64,000 nt of DNA from Dethiobacter alkaliphilus (GTDB lineage: Bacteria > Bacillota > Dethiobacteria > DTU022 > UBA8154). This document shows, one piece after another, positions 3,452-63,578 of this stretch. Location of the stretch: assembly GCA_016841605.1 (NCBI GenBank), contig JAENYV010000017.1:1-64000 (forward strand), given 5' to 3'. Below the pieces are notes generated by a model. That model was not told where the DNA came from and did no database searches. It saw only the letters and a list, made by a program, of their open reading frames with translations. How positions within the stretch are numbered: the first letter of the stretch is position 1; each line of letters begins with the position of its first letter. A program made the translations under genes and the position numbers.

Positions 3452-4036
3452 CTAATATAGAGTATGCTTCAGCCAATGCTGCGTCGTTTGATCCCAATAA
3501 ATCCTAACCAGGTAAGTGCAGCCGCAATAACTATCAGCACTGGTGTCAAAGTATGATTCTATATCTCCCTCCACAAACCATTTCACCGCCGTGAAGTTAT
3601 GTTGAATTTGCAATAGCGCGGTGTGACAGCTCCTTTTTGGTCTGAACCCATGAGAGAAGTTGGAGAATGTCGGCTCATAGATGCTTTCCAGCATCATTCT
3701 GACGACTTCTTGCACCAGTTTGTCATCGGCTGACGGAATACCCAGCGGACGCAGTTTCCCATTTCTCTTTGGGATATAGCTCCGGCGGGCGGGTGACGGC
3801 TGGTAGGTATGATTTTTCAGGGATTCAATAATCCTGTTCACACGCTCTATACCATAACCATCCAATGTCAGACCGTCTATTCCCGGTGTCATCGCTCCTT
3901 TGTCGGCATAGATATTCTGATAAGCCAACAGGTAGAAATCGGGATTGTAGAAATTCCGGTACAGCCTTTCGAAGCGATAATCTTCATTAAGGCTGTGCTT
4001 TTGTAGATTTTCCAAAACAATTTGGGGACTTCTCAT
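3452..4036 (-). pseudogene. ltrA: Group II intron reverse transcriptase, N-terminal fragment
   Basis: Residues 1 to about 167 match LtrA-type group II intron RTs: MRSPQIVLENL start, YRFERLYRNFYNPDFYLLAYQNIY, GIDGLTLDGYG, YIPKRNGKLRPLGIPS, HGFRPKRSCHTALLQI and VEGDIESYFD (RT motif 3). The homology stops just after ESYFD, before the YxDD catalytic motif, maturase and endonuclease domains. The last 27 residues come from unrelated DNA. A full protein would exceed 550 aa, so this is an inactive remnant. Confidence 0.85.
3469..3545 (-). pseudogene. Remnant of a membrane-anchored surface protein C-terminus
   Basis: In a different frame from the reverse-transcriptase fragment, this stretch reads PVLIVIAAALTWLGFIGI followed by KRRSIG and a stop. 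That is a hydrophobic segment plus a short basic tail, as in C-terminal membrane anchors of surface proteins. It lies exactly where the RT homology stops and just upstream of the cyclic-di-GMP riboswitch, which often accompanies adhesin genes. Only about 25 codons remain, so the call is tentative. Confidence 0.35.
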
Positions 4037-4947: not shown

Positions 4948-5610
4948 TTAGAATTTGTAAACTCCCGTTAAGTTCATACCCTTTTTTTCGTTTAGCAATT
5001 TTTCCTTATTGGGCCGATTGTCATCCATTAAAAAACGCGCCCATTCGATATCAAACTTATCAGTGTTTTCTTGCCAATAGATAAGACGATAACAGTAATA
5101 CTCAATCTTCTCACAAACCGGCCTCTGATAATCACCTTTTCCGAACTTGAGGATAAGCGCTGTCAACTCATAAAAAGGAAGCCCTAAAGCGTGAGTTTCA
5201 ACATGCACGGTCGCGCCCGCATGACCAATAGCATGGCACAATGCGCCGTATACTCTGTCATCAATTTCTTTCGCGACTGCGTGGGCATCCAAAATTGCAC
5301 GTTTTGCGGCAGGCATCTTTACTGTACCTCTTGACCAGGCTTCGCAAAGCTCAAGTGCCACTCTTGGTCTTGACTCGTTCGGATATTTTTCTTCAAATTG
5401 AGCAAGTGGAGCCTTAGCGCAATCCAGAGCCCACATAACGAGCACGCGGTGCTTTTGCTGTTCTATCAGCCCTTTAAGCTTTATTTCTGTTGCTTTAGCG
5501 GTGATGCTGTTGTCAATGATATCAGCAAGCGCGATTTCTAGCGTATAGCCTACTGAGCGCAGAGACAATACAAGTGGTGCAGCATCAGGAATTGCAAGTT
5601 TTGGATTCAT
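4948..5610 (-). CDS. Chimera: GHKL-ATPase N-terminus joined to an immunity-protein-like domain
   Basis: The likely start is the ATG at 5610, after a GAGGT-like site; the frame is open back to 5655. The first ~43 residues (IPDAAPLVLSLRSVGYTLEI, then ALADIIDNSITAKATEI) are the start of a GHKL/HATPase_c domain, with the N-box D/N pair but nothing of the G-boxes. The next ~150 residues (VMWALDCAKAPLAQFEEKYP, RPRVALELCEAWSRGTVK, AHAVAKEID, ALCHAIGHAGATVHVETHAL) look like the putative Imm-5-type immunity family. The ATP-binding site cannot be complete. A deletion joining two genes is the simplest reading. Confidence 0.6.
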   Translation of the reverse strand: MNPKLAIPDAAPLVLSLRSVGYTLEIALADIIDNSITAKATEIKLKGLIEQQKHRVLVMWALDCAKAPLAQFEEKYPNESRPRVALELCEAWSRGTVKMPAAKRAILDAHAVAKEIDDRVYGALCHAIGHAGATVHVETHALGLPFYELTALILKFGKGDYQRPVCEKIEYYCYRLIYWQENTDKFDIEWARFLMDDNRPNKEKLLNEKKGMNLTGVYKF

Positions 5611-5655
5611 ATTATACCTCATGAGTCCTATCTCATTTTCATTTAAGAATTCCAC

Positions 5656-6928: not shown

Positions 6929-7132
6929 TCAGCCCGGTTTTCGTCTTGAACTCGTAACTGGCAGTCCGAGCTTTTTCATATACCGATGGGCTGTCCTAGG
7001 ACTGACGTCTAGCATTTCGGCCAACCGAGCTGTGGTGATGATTTTACAGAGTTCGCAAATATTGCATTTCAGAATGCTGTTCAATTCTTTAAATAAACAA
7101 TAAATTCCTGCATTGCAGAACGATTTCTTCAT
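6929..7132 (-). CDS. Small putative helix-turn-helix protein
   Basis: The C-terminal half (TTARLAEMLDVSPRTAHRYM) fits a helix-turn-helix. The N-terminal half has four cysteines, including CNICELC, but no clear fold. No good ribosome site precedes the ATG at 7132, so this may be the tail of a damaged regulator. Confidence 0.4.
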   Translation of the reverse strand: MKKSFCNAGIYCLFKELNSILKCNICELCKIITTARLAEMLDVSPRTAHRYMKKLGLPVTSSRRKPG

Positions 7133-7230: not shown

Positions 7231-7308
7231 ATGGACATAAAGAGAAATTGGGTAATTGTCAGGAACGCTAAGATTATTTGGAAGAATGGTAAGGAGGAAA
7301 TTTTTTGA
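7231..7308 (+). CDS. 25-aa leader peptide coupled to the downstream gene
   Basis: ATG at 7231 follows AGAGGAG and encodes 25 residues (MDIKRNWVIVRNAKIIWKNG then KEEIF). Its stop codon (7306-7308) overlaps the TTG start of the next gene (7305-7307), and its final codons carry AAGGAGG, the next gene's ribosome site. Translational coupling is therefore likely. Whether the peptide has its own role is unknown. Confidence 0.5.
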   Translation: MDIKRNWVIVRNAKIIWKNGKEEIF

Positions 7309-8144
7309 AAAATAAAGGTAAAATATCGAATAGATTGTTAAAACTATCCGAAGATAACCAAAAGTGGTTTAAGAATTATTTAAATTGGTTACCACAAAAT
7401 GGGGTTACTACTAAAAATAGTATAGAAGAATACCGTTCTACGGCAATCAATATAATGGAGTTATTACCTGAGTCAGATGTAAATAACTTAACCTTGGAAC
7501 AAATTATTTTTTTCCTTTCAGATAACGAGAAACCAAATACCTACAATAAAAAAGTAAACTTTACTAAAAAGTTTTTTATTTTTTTAAAAGAATCAGAGCA
7601 ATTGGAATTGCAATTTCCAATTGAAGGAATAGATAAGCTTCTTAAAAAATATAACGCCAAAGAGATTAAATCCCAAACAGATACAGCGAAACCGTTACAA
7701 TTTAAAGAAATTTCAAAAATTAGAGAGGCTCTAAAGGTTTATCCTGCGGGGCTATTCTTTTTTGAAATGACTCTACGTTACGGTGTAACTTTTAAGCAAT
7801 GGCCGGATTTGAATGAAGACAACTACGATATTGAAACAAAAACCTTTAAATCCTTAAATATTGTGGTGGAACAGGATATACATGAATTAATTATAGCTAA
7901 TCCAAAGATATTAAAAAGGAAAAGTTTCCAAGGTATACTTACCTATTATAGTAAAAAATTAGAAATAAATTTTTCATACTATGACATCATTGCTACTAGA
8001 AAGGAATATTTTTTAAAATGCTTTTTTTGTAATAAAATTTTTGAAAACACATCTAAAAATTGGGTGTTGGTACAGTTTCCAAACGACGATAAGAAATGGA
8101 TTGTTTGTCGAAATTGTGGGACTAGGGGGTTAGTTAATGGATAA
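7305..8144 (+). CDS. Integrase-like protein with C-terminal zinc ribbon, no catalytic triad
   Basis: A TTG start follows AAGGAGG. Residues ~15-105 resemble the SAM-like core-binding domain of tyrosine recombinases (WFKNYLNWLPQNGVTTKNSI ... NTYNKKVNFTKKFFIFLKES). Residues ~130-175 contain the start of a recombinase-like fold (MTLRYGVTFKQWPDL, the box I Arg region). No His-x-x-Arg box or nucleophilic Tyr is evident. The C-terminus instead has CFFCNKIF ... CRNCG, a four-cysteine zinc ribbon. It overlaps the next gene by 8 bases. It probably binds DNA without recombining it and may guide the partner nuclease (inference). Confidence 0.6.
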   Translation: MKNKGKISNRLLKLSEDNQKWFKNYLNWLPQNGVTTKNSIEEYRSTAINIMELLPESDVNNLTLEQIIFFLSDNEKPNTYNKKVNFTKKFFIFLKESEQLELQFPIEGIDKLLKKYNAKEIKSQTDTAKPLQFKEISKIREALKVYPAGLFFFEMTLRYGVTFKQWPDLNEDNYDIETKTFKSLNIVVEQDIHELIIANPKILKRKSFQGILTYYSKKLEINFSYYDIIATRKEYFLKCFFCNKIFENTSKNWVLVQFPNDDKKWIVCRNCGTRGLVNG

Positions 8145-8736
8145 GATAAAAGTTTTCGAATTAGAATTGATGCCGCTTTATAATAATATGGGAGTACTTT
8201 TACAGGAATCAAAAGAAATAATAATTAGTTCTTACAGTCCTATAATTATTAAAGATATTTTAGATAAAGAAGAAGATGATTATAGTCCATGGGATAAAGA
8301 AGAGCAAGGTAGATCAGGAGAGCTTATTGCAAAAAAATACCTTGAGAACAAATATAAAGAAGTAGTTGATGTATCAAAAACTACTAAGCTTGGTTATGAT
8401 ATTAAAGTAAATGATAAGCTTGCCTTTGAAGTTAAAACCTCGAAGTCAAAAAATTTTTTTCATATTTCTTACAATGAATTAAAAGTTGCTACCTATATGC
8501 AAGATAAATACAATCTATTTTTTATTAAAGTTGATGTAAAGGACGAAAAAATAACAAAGGCTACCGGCTTTATTATAAATAACCCTATTAAAATATTACA
8601 AATAAATCTTAGGATTATAGCGCCAACTTTCGAACTTGATAATATTAACCTTAAACCAAGTCAGTTTAAAATATATTTTAATAAAGATTTTATTAGTTTA
8701 CAGGAATGGATTATTTTAACAGATTATATTTCATAA
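8137..8736 (+). CDS. DUF3883-like PD-(D/E)xK nuclease-fold protein
   Basis: A 199-aa protein. Residues 50-145 fit DUF3883, a restriction-endonuclease-like fold found in many defence genes: GRSGELIAKKYL helix, VSKTTKLGYDIKV (the D of the PD motif), then FEVKTSK (the E-x-K) and FHISYNELKVA. Catalytic residues therefore appear present. It is translationally coupled (8-bp overlap) to the integrase-like zinc-ribbon gene. Both genes are AT-rich compared with the prophage next door, which suggests transfer. A defence or mobile-element role is inferred. Confidence 0.65.
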   Translation: MDKIKVFELELMPLYNNMGVLLQESKEIIISSYSPIIIKDILDKEEDDYSPWDKEEQGRSGELIAKKYLENKYKEVVDVSKTTKLGYDIKVNDKLAFEVKTSKSKNFFHISYNELKVATYMQDKYNLFFIKVDVKDEKITKATGFIINNPIKILQINLRIIAPTFELDNINLKPSQFKIYFNKDFISLQEWIILTDYIS

Positions 8737-8849: not shown

Positions 8850-8875
8850 AAAAAAAAGCGGGGATTTCTCCCCGC
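8850..8875 (-). terminator. Strong terminator at the end of the prophage late operon
   Basis: On the minus strand GCGGGG-AGAAAT-CCCCGC is followed by eight T residues. It lies 35 bases beyond the holin gene, the last gene of the late operon. Confidence 0.9.
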
Positions 8876-8909
8876 TTAGTATCGTATAGTAAGATTTCGC
8901 CCGTCTACC

Positions 8910-9278
8910 CTACCCAGCCTCTTCCTTCTTCGCCTCAGCCCACTCTTCCCCGAATTCATCTTTAAATGTCCTTAAAGCCGCTTCAATAAGCCCCTTTATT
9001 TCCCTGGTCGTTATGTTTAACCCTATTTCTCCGGCCCGCTCCGATAGCCACTTCGCCGCCTGAGTATACTTCTCTTCTCCTTTCAAATCTTTAAAAGCTT
9101 GCTCCACGAAACGAACTGCTAAGAAAGCCAGCTCCTGCTTGAGCGCCAGCTCCGTTTCAATTTTCTTCATACCCTCGACGCCCAGGCGTTTTTTCAGCCA
9201 GGCAACCATGAAACCGGCCAGCACCGTTACTAAAAGCAATAAGGCATCCTGCAGTAAAGGGGCAACCACTTCATTCAT
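8910..9278 (-). CDS. Phage holin, LLH-type
   Basis: A 122-aa protein: one N-terminal membrane segment (LLQDALLLLVTVLAGFMVAW, residues 7-26), then a basic and helical cytoplasmic part (VRFVEQAFKDLKGEEKYTQA ... FKDEFGEEWAEAKK). This fits the LLH holin family of contractile-tail Firmicutes phages. Its start overlaps the stop of the endolysin gene (TAATG), so both are translated together. It is the last gene before the late terminator. Role: permeabilises the membrane so the amidase reaches the wall. Confidence 0.8.
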   Translation of the reverse strand: MNEVVAPLLQDALLLLVTVLAGFMVAWLKKRLGVEGMKKIETELALKQELAFLAVRFVEQAFKDLKGEEKYTQAAKWLSERAGEIGLNITTREIKGLIEAALRTFKDEFGEEWAEAKKEEAG

Positions 9279-9541: not shown

Positions 9542-11152
9542 ATGGCAGCCATTATTCACCAGAAAGATAAGCGATCCGGAATTACATACGCATACCAATC
9601 CGTGTCCTACTGGGACAAGGAGAAGCAGCAGTCCCGTTCTAAAAGAACCCTCATTGGGCGGGTGGATGACAAGACCGGTGAAATCCTTCCTACAGACGGC
9701 CGGGGGCGGAAAAAGAAAGATGAATCCATTCCTACCCAAAGAGGCCCAGTCCCTGTGGAGAGAACTGCCCGCTCTTTCTATGGTGCCACCTATCTGCTGG
9801 ATGCCATTGGTGAAAAGCTGGGCATCACCCAGGACATAAAAATCTGTTTCCCGGAGACCTATCGGCAAATCCTGTCTACGGCCTATTACCTGGTGCTGGA
9901 AGATCATAACCCGCTGTACCGCTTTGAAAAATGGGGAAGCCTCCATAAACATCCCTACGGCAAGAACATCACATCCCAGCGGAGCAGTGAATTATTCGGA
10001 TCCATTACAGAAGAAGACAAACAGCATTTCTTTAAGCTTCAGGGGAAACGCAGGAGTGAAAAAGAATACTGGGCCTATGACATTACCTCTATCTCCAGCT
10101 ATTCGGAATCCCTGCGACAAGTGCAGTATGGTAAAAACAAGGAGGATGACAGGCTTCCACAGCTAAACCTGGCCCTAGTCTTTGGTGAAACATCCAACCT
10201 GCCCTTTTACTATCGGAAGCTGGCAGGCAACATCCCCGATTCCAAAACCCTGAAGCACTTATTGGCGGATTTAGACACCTTGGGGTTTGCCAAAGTGAAG
10301 CTGGTCATGGACCGGGGTTTTTACAGTGAAGAAAACCTGAATGCCCTTTTCAAAGACCATATAAAGTTTCTCATCGCCGGCAAAATGTCACTGAACTTCA
10401 TGAAGTCCAATCTGGAAGGCATATACGATAAATTTCGCAGCTTTGAACACTACAACGAGAGCTATGAACTCTATTGCCGCACCGTTGAAACCCAGTGGCA
10501 GTATACTCAGTACCGGCCATACAAGAAAGAAACCCTGAAAGAACCCCGCCGGATCTATGTTCATTATTACTACAACATTGAAAAAGCCGCGGAAGAGGAA
10601 AAAGCCTTTGACAGAAACCTGATGATCCTGCGCCGCGAACTGGAATCCGGCAAGCGGATCCCGGAACATGAAAACCAGTATAAAAAGTATTTTGATGTGA
10701 AAACCAGGCCCAAAAGGGGCACAAGGGCCACGGTAAAGGAAGAAACGGTTTTACTGGCCAAGAAATATTTCGGGTTCTTTGCGCTACTCACTAATGAAAC
10801 CATGGACGCGGTAACCGCCCTCGAAACATACCGGAACAAGGATTTGGTGGAAAAGGCCTTTGGCAACCTGAAAGAACGGTTAAACCTGCGTCGCACCCTG
10901 GTATCCTCTGAGCAAAGCCTGGATGGCAAACTCTTCATTGAGTTTGTGGCGCTAATTTACCTGTCTTACATCAAAAAGCAGATGCAGGTGTCTGATTTGT
11001 TCAAAAAGTACACCATCCAGGGAGCCCTGGATAAGCTTGATGTCATTGAATGTTTTGAAACCCCCGGTCAACAGCTGCGTGTAGGTGAACTGATGGAGAA
11101 GCAAAAGGAGATCTATCACGCGCTGGGGGTTGAGCCGCCTCCCTCGTTATGA
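9542..11152 (+). CDS. IS1634 family transposase
   Basis: A 536-aa DDE transposase. N-terminal IIHQKDKRSGITYAYQSVSY is typical of IS1634-type proteins. The catalytic aspartate lies in KLVMDRGFYSEENL (about residue 255), and the IS4-group Y-x2-K-D/E signature is in ETYRNKDLVEKAFGNLKERL (about 430-450). Full length with no stop codons, so probably active. It lies antisense to the phage late operon and has no partner gene. The ATG follows AACGAGGATGTGTTCTG, a weak ribosome site. Confidence 0.92.
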   Translation: MAAIIHQKDKRSGITYAYQSVSYWDKEKQQSRSKRTLIGRVDDKTGEILPTDGRGRKKKDESIPTQRGPVPVERTARSFYGATYLLDAIGEKLGITQDIKICFPETYRQILSTAYYLVLEDHNPLYRFEKWGSLHKHPYGKNITSQRSSELFGSITEEDKQHFFKLQGKRRSEKEYWAYDITSISSYSESLRQVQYGKNKEDDRLPQLNLALVFGETSNLPFYYRKLAGNIPDSKTLKHLLADLDTLGFAKVKLVMDRGFYSEENLNALFKDHIKFLIAGKMSLNFMKSNLEGIYDKFRSFEHYNESYELYCRTVETQWQYTQYRPYKKETLKEPRRIYVHYYYNIEKAAEEEKAFDRNLMILRRELESGKRIPEHENQYKKYFDVKTRPKRGTRATVKEETVLLAKKYFGFFALLTNETMDAVTALETYRNKDLVEKAFGNLKERLNLRRTLVSSEQSLDGKLFIEFVALIYLSYIKKQMQVSDLFKKYTIQGALDKLDVIECFETPGQQLRVGELMEKQKEIYHALGVEPPPSL

Positions 11153-11795
11153 GTTGGCGGGAATCCAGGTTGCCATTATATAAGATTTTAGTTTTTGTCA
11201 TTGGCTGGACCCCCTTATTGGGCTCTATATACTTCACTCCGAGCAGCTCACAGAGAACTTTTGCCTGTGCTTCAGCTATAAGGCATAAATTTTCATCATT
11301 TTTTAGGAATGCCTCGTCTGCAGCATTATCGTGGAATCCGTTTTCAATTAAAAATACATGGGGTACCCCGACAGCTACAGTAGAACGAATGACGCCGTAG
11401 TAGTCGTAACCTTTAGTAGTCTCAGACTCTCTTTTCTTTGCCCCCCGGTCATTGTTACCCATGGCCTTGGCCACGGCTGCGGACAGCTTTCCGGCCCATA
11501 CTTTGTCCCCTGGACTACGGACCGAATAAAAGCATTCTGTACCCCGAGTCTGGCCACTTGCGGCATTGGAGTGCTCGCTGATAAATACGTCGCTGTCCCA
11601 TCCCCTTGCACCACGATCTGCAAGTGCGAGGTCTTCGTTTTGTGTACGTGTTAGAGCTGCGTTAATGCCGCACCGCCAAAGCGCGTTTTTGAGAAAGTTC
11701 GAGAGTTTCCACATTCCAGCATGTTCGTAATAACCGGTAGGGCCGCTATTCGCATTCCCCGGCGCATGACCGGGATCAATTGTAACTTTCTTCAT
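11043..11795 (-). pseudogene. N-acetylmuramoyl-L-alanine amidase (endolysin), IS-interrupted 5' part
   Basis: Residues 1-175 are a complete Amidase_3 zinc amidase: DPGHAPG (His ligand, ~8), SEHSNAASG (His, ~74) and FLIENGFHDN (catalytic Glu, ~152). From about 195 (MTKTKILYNGN) a stalk/wall-binding domain begins and is cut by the IS at nt 11169. The frame then runs 42 codons into the IS. The intact protein would be 248 aa. The catalytic domain may still fold, but wall binding and coupling to the holin are lost or weakened. Confidence 0.92.
11143..11169 (-). repeat. Right inverted repeat of the IS
   Basis: On the minus strand it reads CCTGGATTCCCGCCAACTCA then TAACGAG. The repeat overlaps the transposase stop codon. 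TTGCCA at 11170-11175 is the second target copy. Confidence 0.85.
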
Positions 11796-23953: not shown

Positions 23954-25168
23954 ATGTTGGAAAAATTTATATCCTATTGGCATAAACAAAGCATGGCTAA
24001 AAAGATAATTATTTTAGTTGTAGGTTTTTTTCTAATATGGCTTTACTTCTCAATAACCGCTGTTTTTGCAGCTTTATTTATGGTCCTAACGATATTTTTT
24101 GCCCTTGCTTTTATAGCAGGAAAGGTAAAGTTTTTAAAGATAGAAAATAGGAAAACAAGCCTTATTGCGCTTGCTTTGTCATTTCTTATGTTTATTTTTT
24201 CGATAGCGTTGATTCCAAAAACTGAAAAATCAGGTGAACAAAGTATTGCAAAAGGAGACCGGGATTCAATACTATATTCGATCTTAAATGGTAAAGACGA
24301 AGAAAATAGGAAAATCTGTGAAGTATACATAAATATGAGTTACAAAATTGACGGCAATACTTTAAAAGCTATTGGTGATACTAATTTACTTGATGGGGCG
24401 ATAGGATATATAAATATAAATGTATATAATCCGAACGGTACATACAACGATCAGATTATTAAGATAGAAGATTTTGAAAAAGAATTTATTGTTAAAGATA
24501 ATAACTTTACCTGTACTTATGGATTACTAACTATTTCAACACCTTTTATAATTGATTTTGAAATAAACTTACATCCCTATTCTGATACTCAGTCTTTAAA
24601 AGTAAAAAATATTTATGGGCAGAACTTTATGAACCTTACCGGAGAAGATGTCTTGGAAATTGTGCCTTTAGATTCACAAAAACATAAAGAAATTAACCTT
24701 AAATATGAAGTATTGGTAAGTAATAATGATCTACAATTCAATAAATTAATTACTAAATCAAGATCTACTACTAATATAAATTATGAAGAAATAGTCAAAT
24801 TTTTTGAATACCAAGGTTACAATTTTAACGAAATACATATTCAAAATAAAATCATTGGCCAAAATAGTACCGGTGGCATTATAGAATTAATTATGGAAAA
24901 AGGTAAAATAAAAGAAGTTAGCCTCGCTTTGCCGATGCCTAGCGAAACAGATCAAGAATTAGCAAATAAATTGGATTTACTTTTAACGTTTGTTAGCCTA
25001 ACAAATCCAAATTGGGAAGAAGGTGAAAGTTGGATTTCAAAAAAATTAACTGATATATTTAACAATAAGTCGTATAGACCTGTAACCATAGAACATAACA
25101 ATAAACAAGTATCTGTTACTTTTTTTGACTATTCTGACGCTGTTTTAATATCTGTTATGGGAATATAA
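23954..25168 (+). CDS. Membrane protein with large extracytoplasmic part, moron
   Basis: 404 aa. Residues ~16-75 contain two to three hydrophobic helices (KKIIILVVGFFLIWLYFSIT, AVFAALFMVLTIFFALAFIA, TSLIALALSFLMFIFSIALI). The remaining ~310 residues are a polar β/α domain rich in Asn and Ile. It is AT-rich and opposite to the surrounding late operon, with its own promoter, so it can be expressed in the lysogen. I recognise no family. Phage morons of this shape often affect the host envelope or exclude other phages (inference). Confidence 0.6.
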   Translation: MLEKFISYWHKQSMAKKIIILVVGFFLIWLYFSITAVFAALFMVLTIFFALAFIAGKVKFLKIENRKTSLIALALSFLMFIFSIALIPKTEKSGEQSIAKGDRDSILYSILNGKDEENRKICEVYINMSYKIDGNTLKAIGDTNLLDGAIGYININVYNPNGTYNDQIIKIEDFEKEFIVKDNNFTCTYGLLTISTPFIIDFEINLHPYSDTQSLKVKNIYGQNFMNLTGEDVLEIVPLDSQKHKEINLKYEVLVSNNDLQFNKLITKSRSTTNINYEEIVKFFEYQGYNFNEIHIQNKIIGQNSTGGIIELIMEKGKIKEVSLALPMPSETDQELANKLDLLLTFVSLTNPNWEEGESWISKKLTDIFNNKSYRPVTIEHNNKQVSVTFFDYSDAVLISVMGI

Positions 25169-61990: not shown

Positions 61991-62431
61991 ATGCGCCACA
62001 TTAAAAACTCTGTAAGCGGCTTAATTCAAAAGTATAAAACCAGGTGTCCGTATGAACTTGCAGACTACCTGGGAATAGAGATATTCGAATATACTTTCAG
62101 GAAAATTCGTGGACTTATTCTTTCTATTGGGGAAAGAAAAATAATTGGAGTAAAAACGGAGCTACCAGAGCAGGAAAAGCGAGCAATCATCGCTCACGAA
62201 ATCGGCCATGAAAGGCTGCATCCGGCAAATGTAGGTTACTTTTTCATCAAGGAACAAACCTACTTTGTCCCAGGCAAATATGAGCATGAAGCGGACCTTT
62301 TTGCCGCCATGCTCTTGGTGGACGAGCCTCCAGAATATGGGGAAGGCATAGAGCAATATGCAGACAGAAAATGTGTTTCTCAATATATGGTAAAAATTAT
62401 TTGGGAGATTTGGAAAAATGGAAATATTTAA
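61991..62431 (+). CDS. ImmA/IrrE-type metalloprotease (anti-repressor)
   Basis: 146 aa. IIAHEIGHERLHPANVGYFF has the HExxH zinc motif; FVPGKYEHEADLFAAMLLVD supplies the third ligand. It directly follows the CI-like repressor, as in the ImmA-ImmR module, and is therefore its probable protease. The prophage carries a second, divergent ImmA-like gene in the tail operon. Confidence 0.88.
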   Translation: MRHIKNSVSGLIQKYKTRCPYELADYLGIEIFEYTFRKIRGLILSIGERKIIGVKTELPEQEKRAIIAHEIGHERLHPANVGYFFIKEQTYFVPGKYEHEADLFAAMLLVDEPPEYGEGIEQYADRKCVSQYMVKIIWEIWKNGNI

Positions 62432-63578
62432 GGCTGTATTGCTAATTCTATCGGGAACCTTTTTTACTTTTATTTCTTTAGCGCCATTTGTTTCCAATGA
62501 TGTAATATGGGGAATTGTACTCCTTGGGATTGGTTTATTTCTCTTGTTTGCCGGAGTTGCTATTATTAAAAATAAAAGAAAAAAGGGTATTAGGTCAGAA
62601 AGCGCATCCCCTGAGGTTATAATAAGCAAAGATATAAGCCCTTATGATAATAAGTCCGATATAAATTTTCAAATATCACTTCCATCCATACTTTCTGTTT
62701 CAGGACTAACAAAAGAACAAAAAGATAGAATTGTGTACATACTTGATAATTATTTTTCCGATCCACGCACTTTGGAAAAAGAATTTATTGCTCTTTTACT
62801 GGGCGGAAAATGGGAATGGCCAGAATTCAAATTATGGCATCAAAAATTTACAGAGCTTGATTATTTCCCTTATATGTGGTCAGCAGTACAATATCTCCCC
62901 TCCGAAGTAACGCCTGAAGCGGTACAAACGCTTGAAATTTTTTCAACCTTGTCCCTTGACGCCAGGCGTCTTTTAGTCGGTAACTATGCTATAGTTAAAG
63001 GAAAGCAAACTACCAGAGCGGTTGAGGATATAGGCCGTGTGGTAGGTATGACCAAGAGCAAAACTTTGGAAGTTATCAAAGAACTTCAGAAATACGATAT
63101 AGCAAAATTCCCGCTTGATATTAACGAAAATTTAGTTATATTAAAGGTGAATGATTTAAAAGATATTTGCGAGGAGTATAAGCTACCTAAAACAGGAAAG
63201 AAATCAGAAATCATCGAAAGGATAAGCCAAAGTATACCTGAAGAGGAATTAAAAAGCTTATTACCGAGTGAAGCGCAAAGAGATGTTGCAAAAATAGGTT
63301 TTTCTCTTCCTTTAAGGGCAAGAAATAACGTTGAATGGGAAATAGAAAAGATTAGATTATTGGTTCATACTGTTCAGCTTTCATTTTATCGAATAAAGGA
63401 TATTGAACAATTTAAAAAGTCCGGCTTGCAAGAGTTTGAAATATTAGGAGTAAAAGAAGACCCTTGTCCAATATGTAGTCCTCTTAATGGAAAAATAGTA
63501 GCAATTGATGATATAAAAAGTTTGCCTCCATTCCACCCAGGATGCAGATGCACCGCAATCGCACATTTCGATTTTTAA
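62418..63578 (+). CDS. Membrane-SAP-gpF-like protein in the lysogeny operon
   Basis: 386 aa. Two N-terminal membrane helices (AVLLILSGTFFTFISLAPFV, VIWGIVLLGIGLFLLFAGVA), a winged-helix-like part (EDIGRVVGMTKSKTLEVIKE), a SAP motif (DLKDICEEYKLPKTGKKSEI) and a C-terminal DPCPICSPLNGKIVAIDDIK with LPPFHPGCRCT, the cysteine motif of Mu gpF-type minor head proteins. It overlaps immA by 14 bases. A superinfection-exclusion role is one possibility (inference). Confidence 0.65.
   Translation: MEIFKAVLLILSGTFFTFISLAPFVSNDVIWGIVLLGIGLFLLFAGVAIIKNKRKKGIRSESASPEVIISKDISPYDNKSDINFQISLPSILSVSGLTKEQKDRIVYILDNYFSDPRTLEKEFIALLLGGKWEWPEFKLWHQKFTELDYFPYMWSAVQYLPSEVTPEAVQTLEIFSTLSLDARRLLVGNYAIVKGKQTTRAVEDIGRVVGMTKSKTLEVIKELQKYDIAKFPLDINENLVILKVNDLKDICEEYKLPKTGKKSEIIERISQSIPEEELKSLLPSEAQRDVAKIGFSLPLRARNNVEWEIEKIRLLVHTVQLSFYRIKDIEQFKKSGLQEFEILGVKEDPCPICSPLNGKIVAIDDIKSLPPFHPGCRCTAIAHFDF

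Follow-up and report, generated by a model that had tools for sequence, protein, structure and literature searches.

A Tyrosine Recombinase-Like Protein Paired with a Predicted NOV_C Nuclease at a Prophage Edge in Dethiobacter alkaliphilus, Probably a DNA-Targeting Restriction or Defense Module

Restriction-like systems are classed by how the target is found. NOV_C (DUF3883) has been described as a new kind of REase domain (PMC3710099), and the NOV_C/DUF3883 proteins have been presumed to form a group of type II REases (PMC10609329). PD-T4-1, which is tabulated as a PD(D/E)XK system (PMC10952713), came from a phage selection in Escherichia coli (PMC9519451). In that selection 12 of the 21 systems were located in prophages, and the putative DNases were mostly outside R-M systems (PMC9519451). 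MrpR (YopR), the master repressor of SPbeta, has a recombinase fold that does not carry out recombination and serves as a DNA-binding repressor (PMC10516654). It is described as a transcriptional repressor, without a described nuclease partner or zinc ribbon (PMC10516654).

The window analyzed here is a stretch of 64,000 nucleotides of Dethiobacter alkaliphilus DNA (contig JAENYV010000017.1), in which a recombinase-like gene (gene 1) is followed by a NOV_C nuclease-like gene (gene 2). The two genes probably form a previously undescribed DNA-targeting restriction or defense module. Both reading frames are intact and overlap by 8 bases, and the GC content is 0.30 to 0.31 across 7 to 9 kb versus 0.42 to 0.49 on the flanks. 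The preliminary description had pointed out this overlap and the low GC content, as well as a 25-aa open reading frame (ORF) overlapping a TTG start, and the reading of the ORFs and base composition bore out all three. The TGA of the 25-aa ORF overlaps the TTG start of gene 1 (7305-7307). Apart from the ribosome-binding site, a leader-peptide role for this ORF is unsupported. No match to a + strand promoter was found upstream of 7231, and the search for regulatory repeats around the operon yielded short AT-rich repeats that were not convincing.

Table 1. Features of the gene pair and its immediate surroundings (positions in the window)
Feature	Position	Strand	Basis or remark
Divergent 67-aa HTH protein, possible regulator	6929..7132	-	HTH_11 6.7e-6; cassette membership uncertain
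25-aa ORF, possible leader peptide, MDIKRNWVIVRNAKIIWKNGKEEIF	7231..7308	+	SD-like GAGGAG just upstream
Shine-Dalgarno AAGGAGG of gene 1	7291..7297	+	Direct reading; 7 nt before TTG
Gene 1, 279-aa tyrosine-recombinase-derived protein	7305..8144	+	Lacks box-II Arg/His and the Tyr region; zinc ribbon at C-terminus
Gene 1 core-binding (SAM-like) domain, residues 17-115	7353..7649	+	Phage_int_SAM_1 23-96; recombinase profile 17-131; Foldseek to 3nrw, 2oxo, 3lys
Gene 1 catalytic-domain remnant, residues 131-233	7695..8003	+	Alignment; second segment weak in profile comparisons
Gene 1 zinc-ribbon motif CFFC-x25-CRNC, residues 239-271	8019..8117	+	Cys239/242 and Cys268/271
Gene 2, 199-aa NOV_C (DUF3883) PD-(D/E)xK protein	8137..8736	+	Pfam and motif alignment
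NOV_C domain of gene 2	8320..8553	+	E62, D88 (GYD), E98-x-K100 (EVK) intact
Strong intrinsic terminator between cassette and prophage holin	8856..8877	-	Convergent cassette set apart from holin

Gene 2 is clearly a predicted NOV_C nuclease of the PD-(D/E)xK type, as the preliminary description had proposed. Its match to NOV_C (PF13020; E = 6.8e-11, 42.5 bits) exceeded the curated cut-off of 22.1, and alignment with 16 other NOV_C domains showed that it keeps the Glu of the GxxxE helix, the GYD, and the ExK, the last within FEVKTSK (residues 97 to 103). These intact E, D, and ExK residues are shared with the NOV_C/DUF3883 nucleases, among which are helicase fusions and predicted type II REases. 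A NOV_C gene was present in 57 of the 398 genomes sampled from the phylum, where the domain mostly appears to be the tail of proteins of ~1100 to 1200 aa that we read as SNF2-type helicases and where some NOV_C genes seem to adjoin DNA methylases. Thus, the usual partners of NOV_C are large helicase-type proteins, methylases, and other domains, whereas the partner here has a recombinase fold. No cognate methyltransferase was found beside gene 2 among the neighboring genes at 5 to 12 kb, and a C5 methylase lies ~43 kb away, within the prophage. The locus therefore lacks the methyltransferase beside the nuclease that is characteristic of type II restriction-modification. NOV_C proteins were also encountered on mobile elements. 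For example, a DUF3883 protein on a resistance plasmid (L135, 3287-4423, +) is flanked by IS elements, and tblastn with the NOV_C half of a gene from genome G080, described below, matched 1159 plasmid records.

The similarity of gene 1 to tyrosine recombinases was weak in the Pfam comparison, in which the match to Phage_int_SAM_1 (E = 0.012) fell below the Pfam cut-off, and was plainer with dedicated profiles. A profile built from four real tyrosine recombinases (L002, L004, L005, and L119) gave gene 1 25.6 bits, compared with 10.9 for the best of 5000 shuffles. L119 alone, which was chosen independently of gene 1, gave 14.8 versus 7.7 for shuffles. A wider profile without the three recombinases that had been found with gene 1 was weaker, at 9.9 bits, with 1 of 1910 scored shuffles higher. 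The end-to-end alignment with recombinases spans the protein from the core-binding domain to box II, which reads YYDIIAT in gene 1 versus PYDLRHT in its relatives, so that the Arg and His are gone. After box II, the C-terminal third of the domain, where the GH motif, the His/Trp, and the Tyr nucleophile would be expected, is lacking, and the protein ends instead in the CFFC...CRNC ribbon. Of the features of an active tyrosine recombinase, gene 1 has the core-binding and catalytic-domain homology and lacks the HxxR, the H/W, and the Tyr.

This alignment agrees with the preliminary description of gene 1 as a recombinase-like protein that had lost its catalytic His-Arg/Tyr and gained a zinc ribbon. 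The box-II Arg and His and the Tyr region are indeed gone, but the list of losses requires a correction because the box-I Arg (R158), together with the beta-strand Lys, appears to be kept in the end-to-end alignment. Retention of the box-I Arg is uncertain because two alignments disagree: the HH profile alignment places a YGVT segment, which is non-Arg, at box I. Gene 1 is not a frameshifted ordinary integrase, the explanation under which the preliminary description would have been abandoned. The substitution at box II keeps the reading frame and has conserved sequence on both sides, and downstream there is no recombinase end in another frame.

Structure models of gene 1 are of low confidence. 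The AlphaFold model from the single sequence was poor (pLDDT 44) and was rejected, a fold search with it being meaningless. When two recombinase rows were added, the core-binding helices were modeled with pLDDT of 70 to 81, and the top 12 PDB matches in Foldseek were all tyrosine recombinases (E of 0.08 to 0.5). This support is weak and partly circular because the alignment rows fed in were themselves recombinases.

The exact pair of gene 1 and gene 2 was absent from 398 phylum genomes, 98 class genomes, phages, plasmids, and viral contigs. The searches used single sequences, with peptide patterns in the viral contigs and tblastn in the phages and plasmids. They returned no homologue of the pair, and conservation of the exact pair is thus not demonstrated by them. 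However, the absence is weak evidence because a single-sequence search with the Desulfoscipio geothermicus protein described below also missed the related gene in G080.

The combination of a recombinase fold with NOV_C does recur in two independent bacteria, as judged from domain matches. The 502-aa D. geothermicus protein, found with gene 2 as the query, carries a recombinase fold and a C-terminal NOV_C as one polypeptide (MrpR_N_CB, 1.5e-6; the MrpR-like body phrog_5830, 1.3e-30; NOV_C, 5.4e-13). When the 398 genomes were searched with phrog_5830, this protein ranked first (4e-31) and G080 second (2.5e-18). In G080 a match to MrpR_N_CB (2.3e-9) is followed, after a frame change, by an ORF that holds the remainder of the MrpR-like fold together with NOV_C (1.8e-17). 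Thus, the two best MrpR-like matches in the sample were both joined to NOV_C. Among 79 NOV_C loci (duplicates included), a recombinase fold was directly joined on the same strand in only 3 distinct places: the window, D. geothermicus, and G080. Integrases near NOV_C in L044, L045, and L136 were ordinary and not joined, and they were left out of this count. A scan of the genome contigs with a NOV_C motif pattern gave 18 matches, with a recombinase part in D. geothermicus only. Short matches at L003, an ABC transporter antisense, and at L060, a helicase with a NOV_C-like end, were rejected. In the MrpR-like/NOV_C gene at L043 (3224-4676, -), the frame changes midway through the recombinase body, which may reflect a broken gene, a sequencing error, or recoding.

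The recombinase part of the fusions is not that of gene 1. Both fusions belong to a different, MrpR-like recombinase branch and have no zinc ribbon, and the similarity of gene 1 to their MrpR-like part was marginal (E = 0.038; hhalign probability ~1%). Gene 1 had no match to MrpR_N_CB or phrog_5830, and MrpR family membership was found in the fusions only. MrpR resembles gene 1 in having a tyrosine-recombinase fold that has lost recombinase activity, and MrpR-like domains are the NOV_C partner in both fusions, but gene 1 keeps different catalytic residues from MrpR and is closer to the ordinary recombinases of the four-member profile. Because the similarity is marginal, the pair in the window may be an independent assembly of like parts. 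The preliminary description had staked its reading on the pair being conserved elsewhere. The exact pair was not found; the joining of MrpR-like and NOV_C domains in two bacteria speaks for the combination. These sequence comparisons add that gene 1 matches real recombinases in an alignment that locates the missing residues, that a frameshift is excluded, and that the two kinds of domain are joined independently in two bacteria.

It is also conceivable that gene 1 is a decaying integrase that came by chance to lie beside an orphan restriction-enzyme gene, without joint function. The lost catalytic residues of gene 1, the uniqueness of the exact pair in the searches, and the frequency of recombinase genes near accessory DNA would all be expected from such an accident. 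However, the two overlapping frames are intact and well initiated, gene 1 has gained an intact four-cysteine ribbon, and domains of the same kinds are fused elsewhere, which makes chance adjacency decidedly unlikely. A joint module is supported by the overlapping intact ORFs with good Shine-Dalgarno sequences, and the frame change in the G080 fusion gene counts against it.

Defense-like genes occur around both fusions. Close to the D. geothermicus fusion are genes for a large serine recombinase, an M78 peptidase, and a protein of the HD-CE/HATPase kind. The G080 gene has ParE-type toxins and a DzbB-like protein in its vicinity, together with an AAA ATPase resembling several defense ATPases. 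The NOV_C half of the G080 gene strongly matched the PADLOC models PDC-S36 (1e-40) and PD-T4-1 (1.6e-15), in regions that exclude the recombinase part of the fusion. Gene 2 had only partial matches, to TmtA (9e-12, in the C-terminal NOV_C region only) and weakly to PDC-S36 (7.8e-4), with no match to PD-T4-1. Gene 1 matched no PADLOC model, and there was no one anti-phage system that both genes matched confidently. In a temperate Vibrio phage, a NOV_C protein (record note DUF3427) is encoded between a CI-type repressor and an integrase (L136, 3164-4513, +), which is a moron position. The neighborhoods, the PADLOC matches, and the position of this Vibrio phage gene fit defense cargo, by association only. 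The preliminary description had suggested a targeting protein plus nuclease as a defense layout; the defense-like genes near the fusions favor this suggestion, but a function in defense is an evenly balanced proposal.

Another explanation is a toxin-antitoxin-like pair, in which gene 1 would be a DNA-binding autorepressor and antitoxin and the nuclease encoded by gene 2 would, if released, harm the host; any defense would then act through abortive infection or maintenance of the element. A small operon of overlapping genes that begins with the DNA-binding protein and is carried as cargo at a prophage edge would suit this arrangement, and ParE-type toxins are close to the G080 fusion gene. However, the fusions are one polypeptide or one gene, which is unsuited to a separable antitoxin, and neither protein matches any toxin-antitoxin family. 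This explanation is unlikely.

The pair lies shortly beyond the holin at one end of a prophage, either just inside or just outside the prophage. The prophage reads on the minus strand. A holin (8910-9278) marks its end near the cassette, the tail, baseplate, and terminase genes are inside, and an integrase (63614-64858) adjoining a host rlmD-like gene closes the other side. The position at a prophage edge given in the preliminary description is therefore correct. A left attachment site was not found among exact and mismatched repeats or by examination of the rlmD neighborhood in a relative.

This position raises the possibility that the pair is a regulator and nuclease for the use of the prophage itself, in excision control, DNA processing, or competition between prophages by repressor-like binding. 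The fusion partner has a characterized relative, MrpR, that acts as a prophage repressor, and the pair is at a prophage edge. However, the pair lies on the opposite strand to the late genes with a terminator between, its foreign base composition makes it look like cargo, and it was absent from the phage records searched. A role in the prophage's own cycle is consequently quite improbable.

The reading we prefer, to which we assign about an even chance, is that the pair is a targeting-plus-nuclease module with a restriction-like or defense function, carried as cargo at the prophage edge. DNA binding, complex formation, cleavage, and defense are all steps that we infer from the sequences. Gene 1, with its recombination-incompetent fold, would bind a specific DNA site through clamp-like recombinase contacts and the zinc ribbon and would recruit gene 2, and the nuclease would then cut the bound or adjacent DNA. 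The target would most likely be invading phage or other mobile DNA. Self-protection without methylation must be explained because no methylase adjoins the pair; it might come from a site that is absent or disrupted in the host or from regulation. We also put forward, tentatively, a more specific and doubtful proposal: a hitherto undescribed class of restriction-like immunity in which an inactive recombinase would read attachment-site-like or repressor-operator-like DNA of incoming elements and direct a NOV_C nuclease to it. As a speculation, self DNA might then be spared in the absence of methylation, since the site in the integrated element itself would be split or occupied. This would suggest a methylation-free discrimination of self from invader. 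If true, a recombinase fold as target finder would give the widespread NOV_C nucleases a targeting module of a new kind, and the theme exemplified by MrpR, of a recombinase become a DNA binder, would extend from repression to attack on DNA.

Other features of the window were noted. On the minus strand, a short HATPase fragment like the start of MzaB (MZA defense) runs directly into an Imm5-like domain (4948-5655), which looks like the deletion junction of a defense gene, and a 194-aa reverse transcriptase fragment comprises the N-terminal part only (3452-4036). The insertion of a DDE transposase (IS; 9542-11152, +) separates the holin from the following prophage gene. The latter, an N-acetylmuramoyl-L-alanine amidase-like ORF (11043-11795), overlaps the end of the transposase and is perhaps truncated. 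Beside the integrase, an M78 (IrrE-like) peptidase precedes a protein that has both SAP and Mu F-like parts (61991-63578, +). Within the minus-strand prophage, a second AT-rich (28% GC) + strand gene (23954-25168) encodes 404 aa with only a weak acyltransferase match and is a probable moron.
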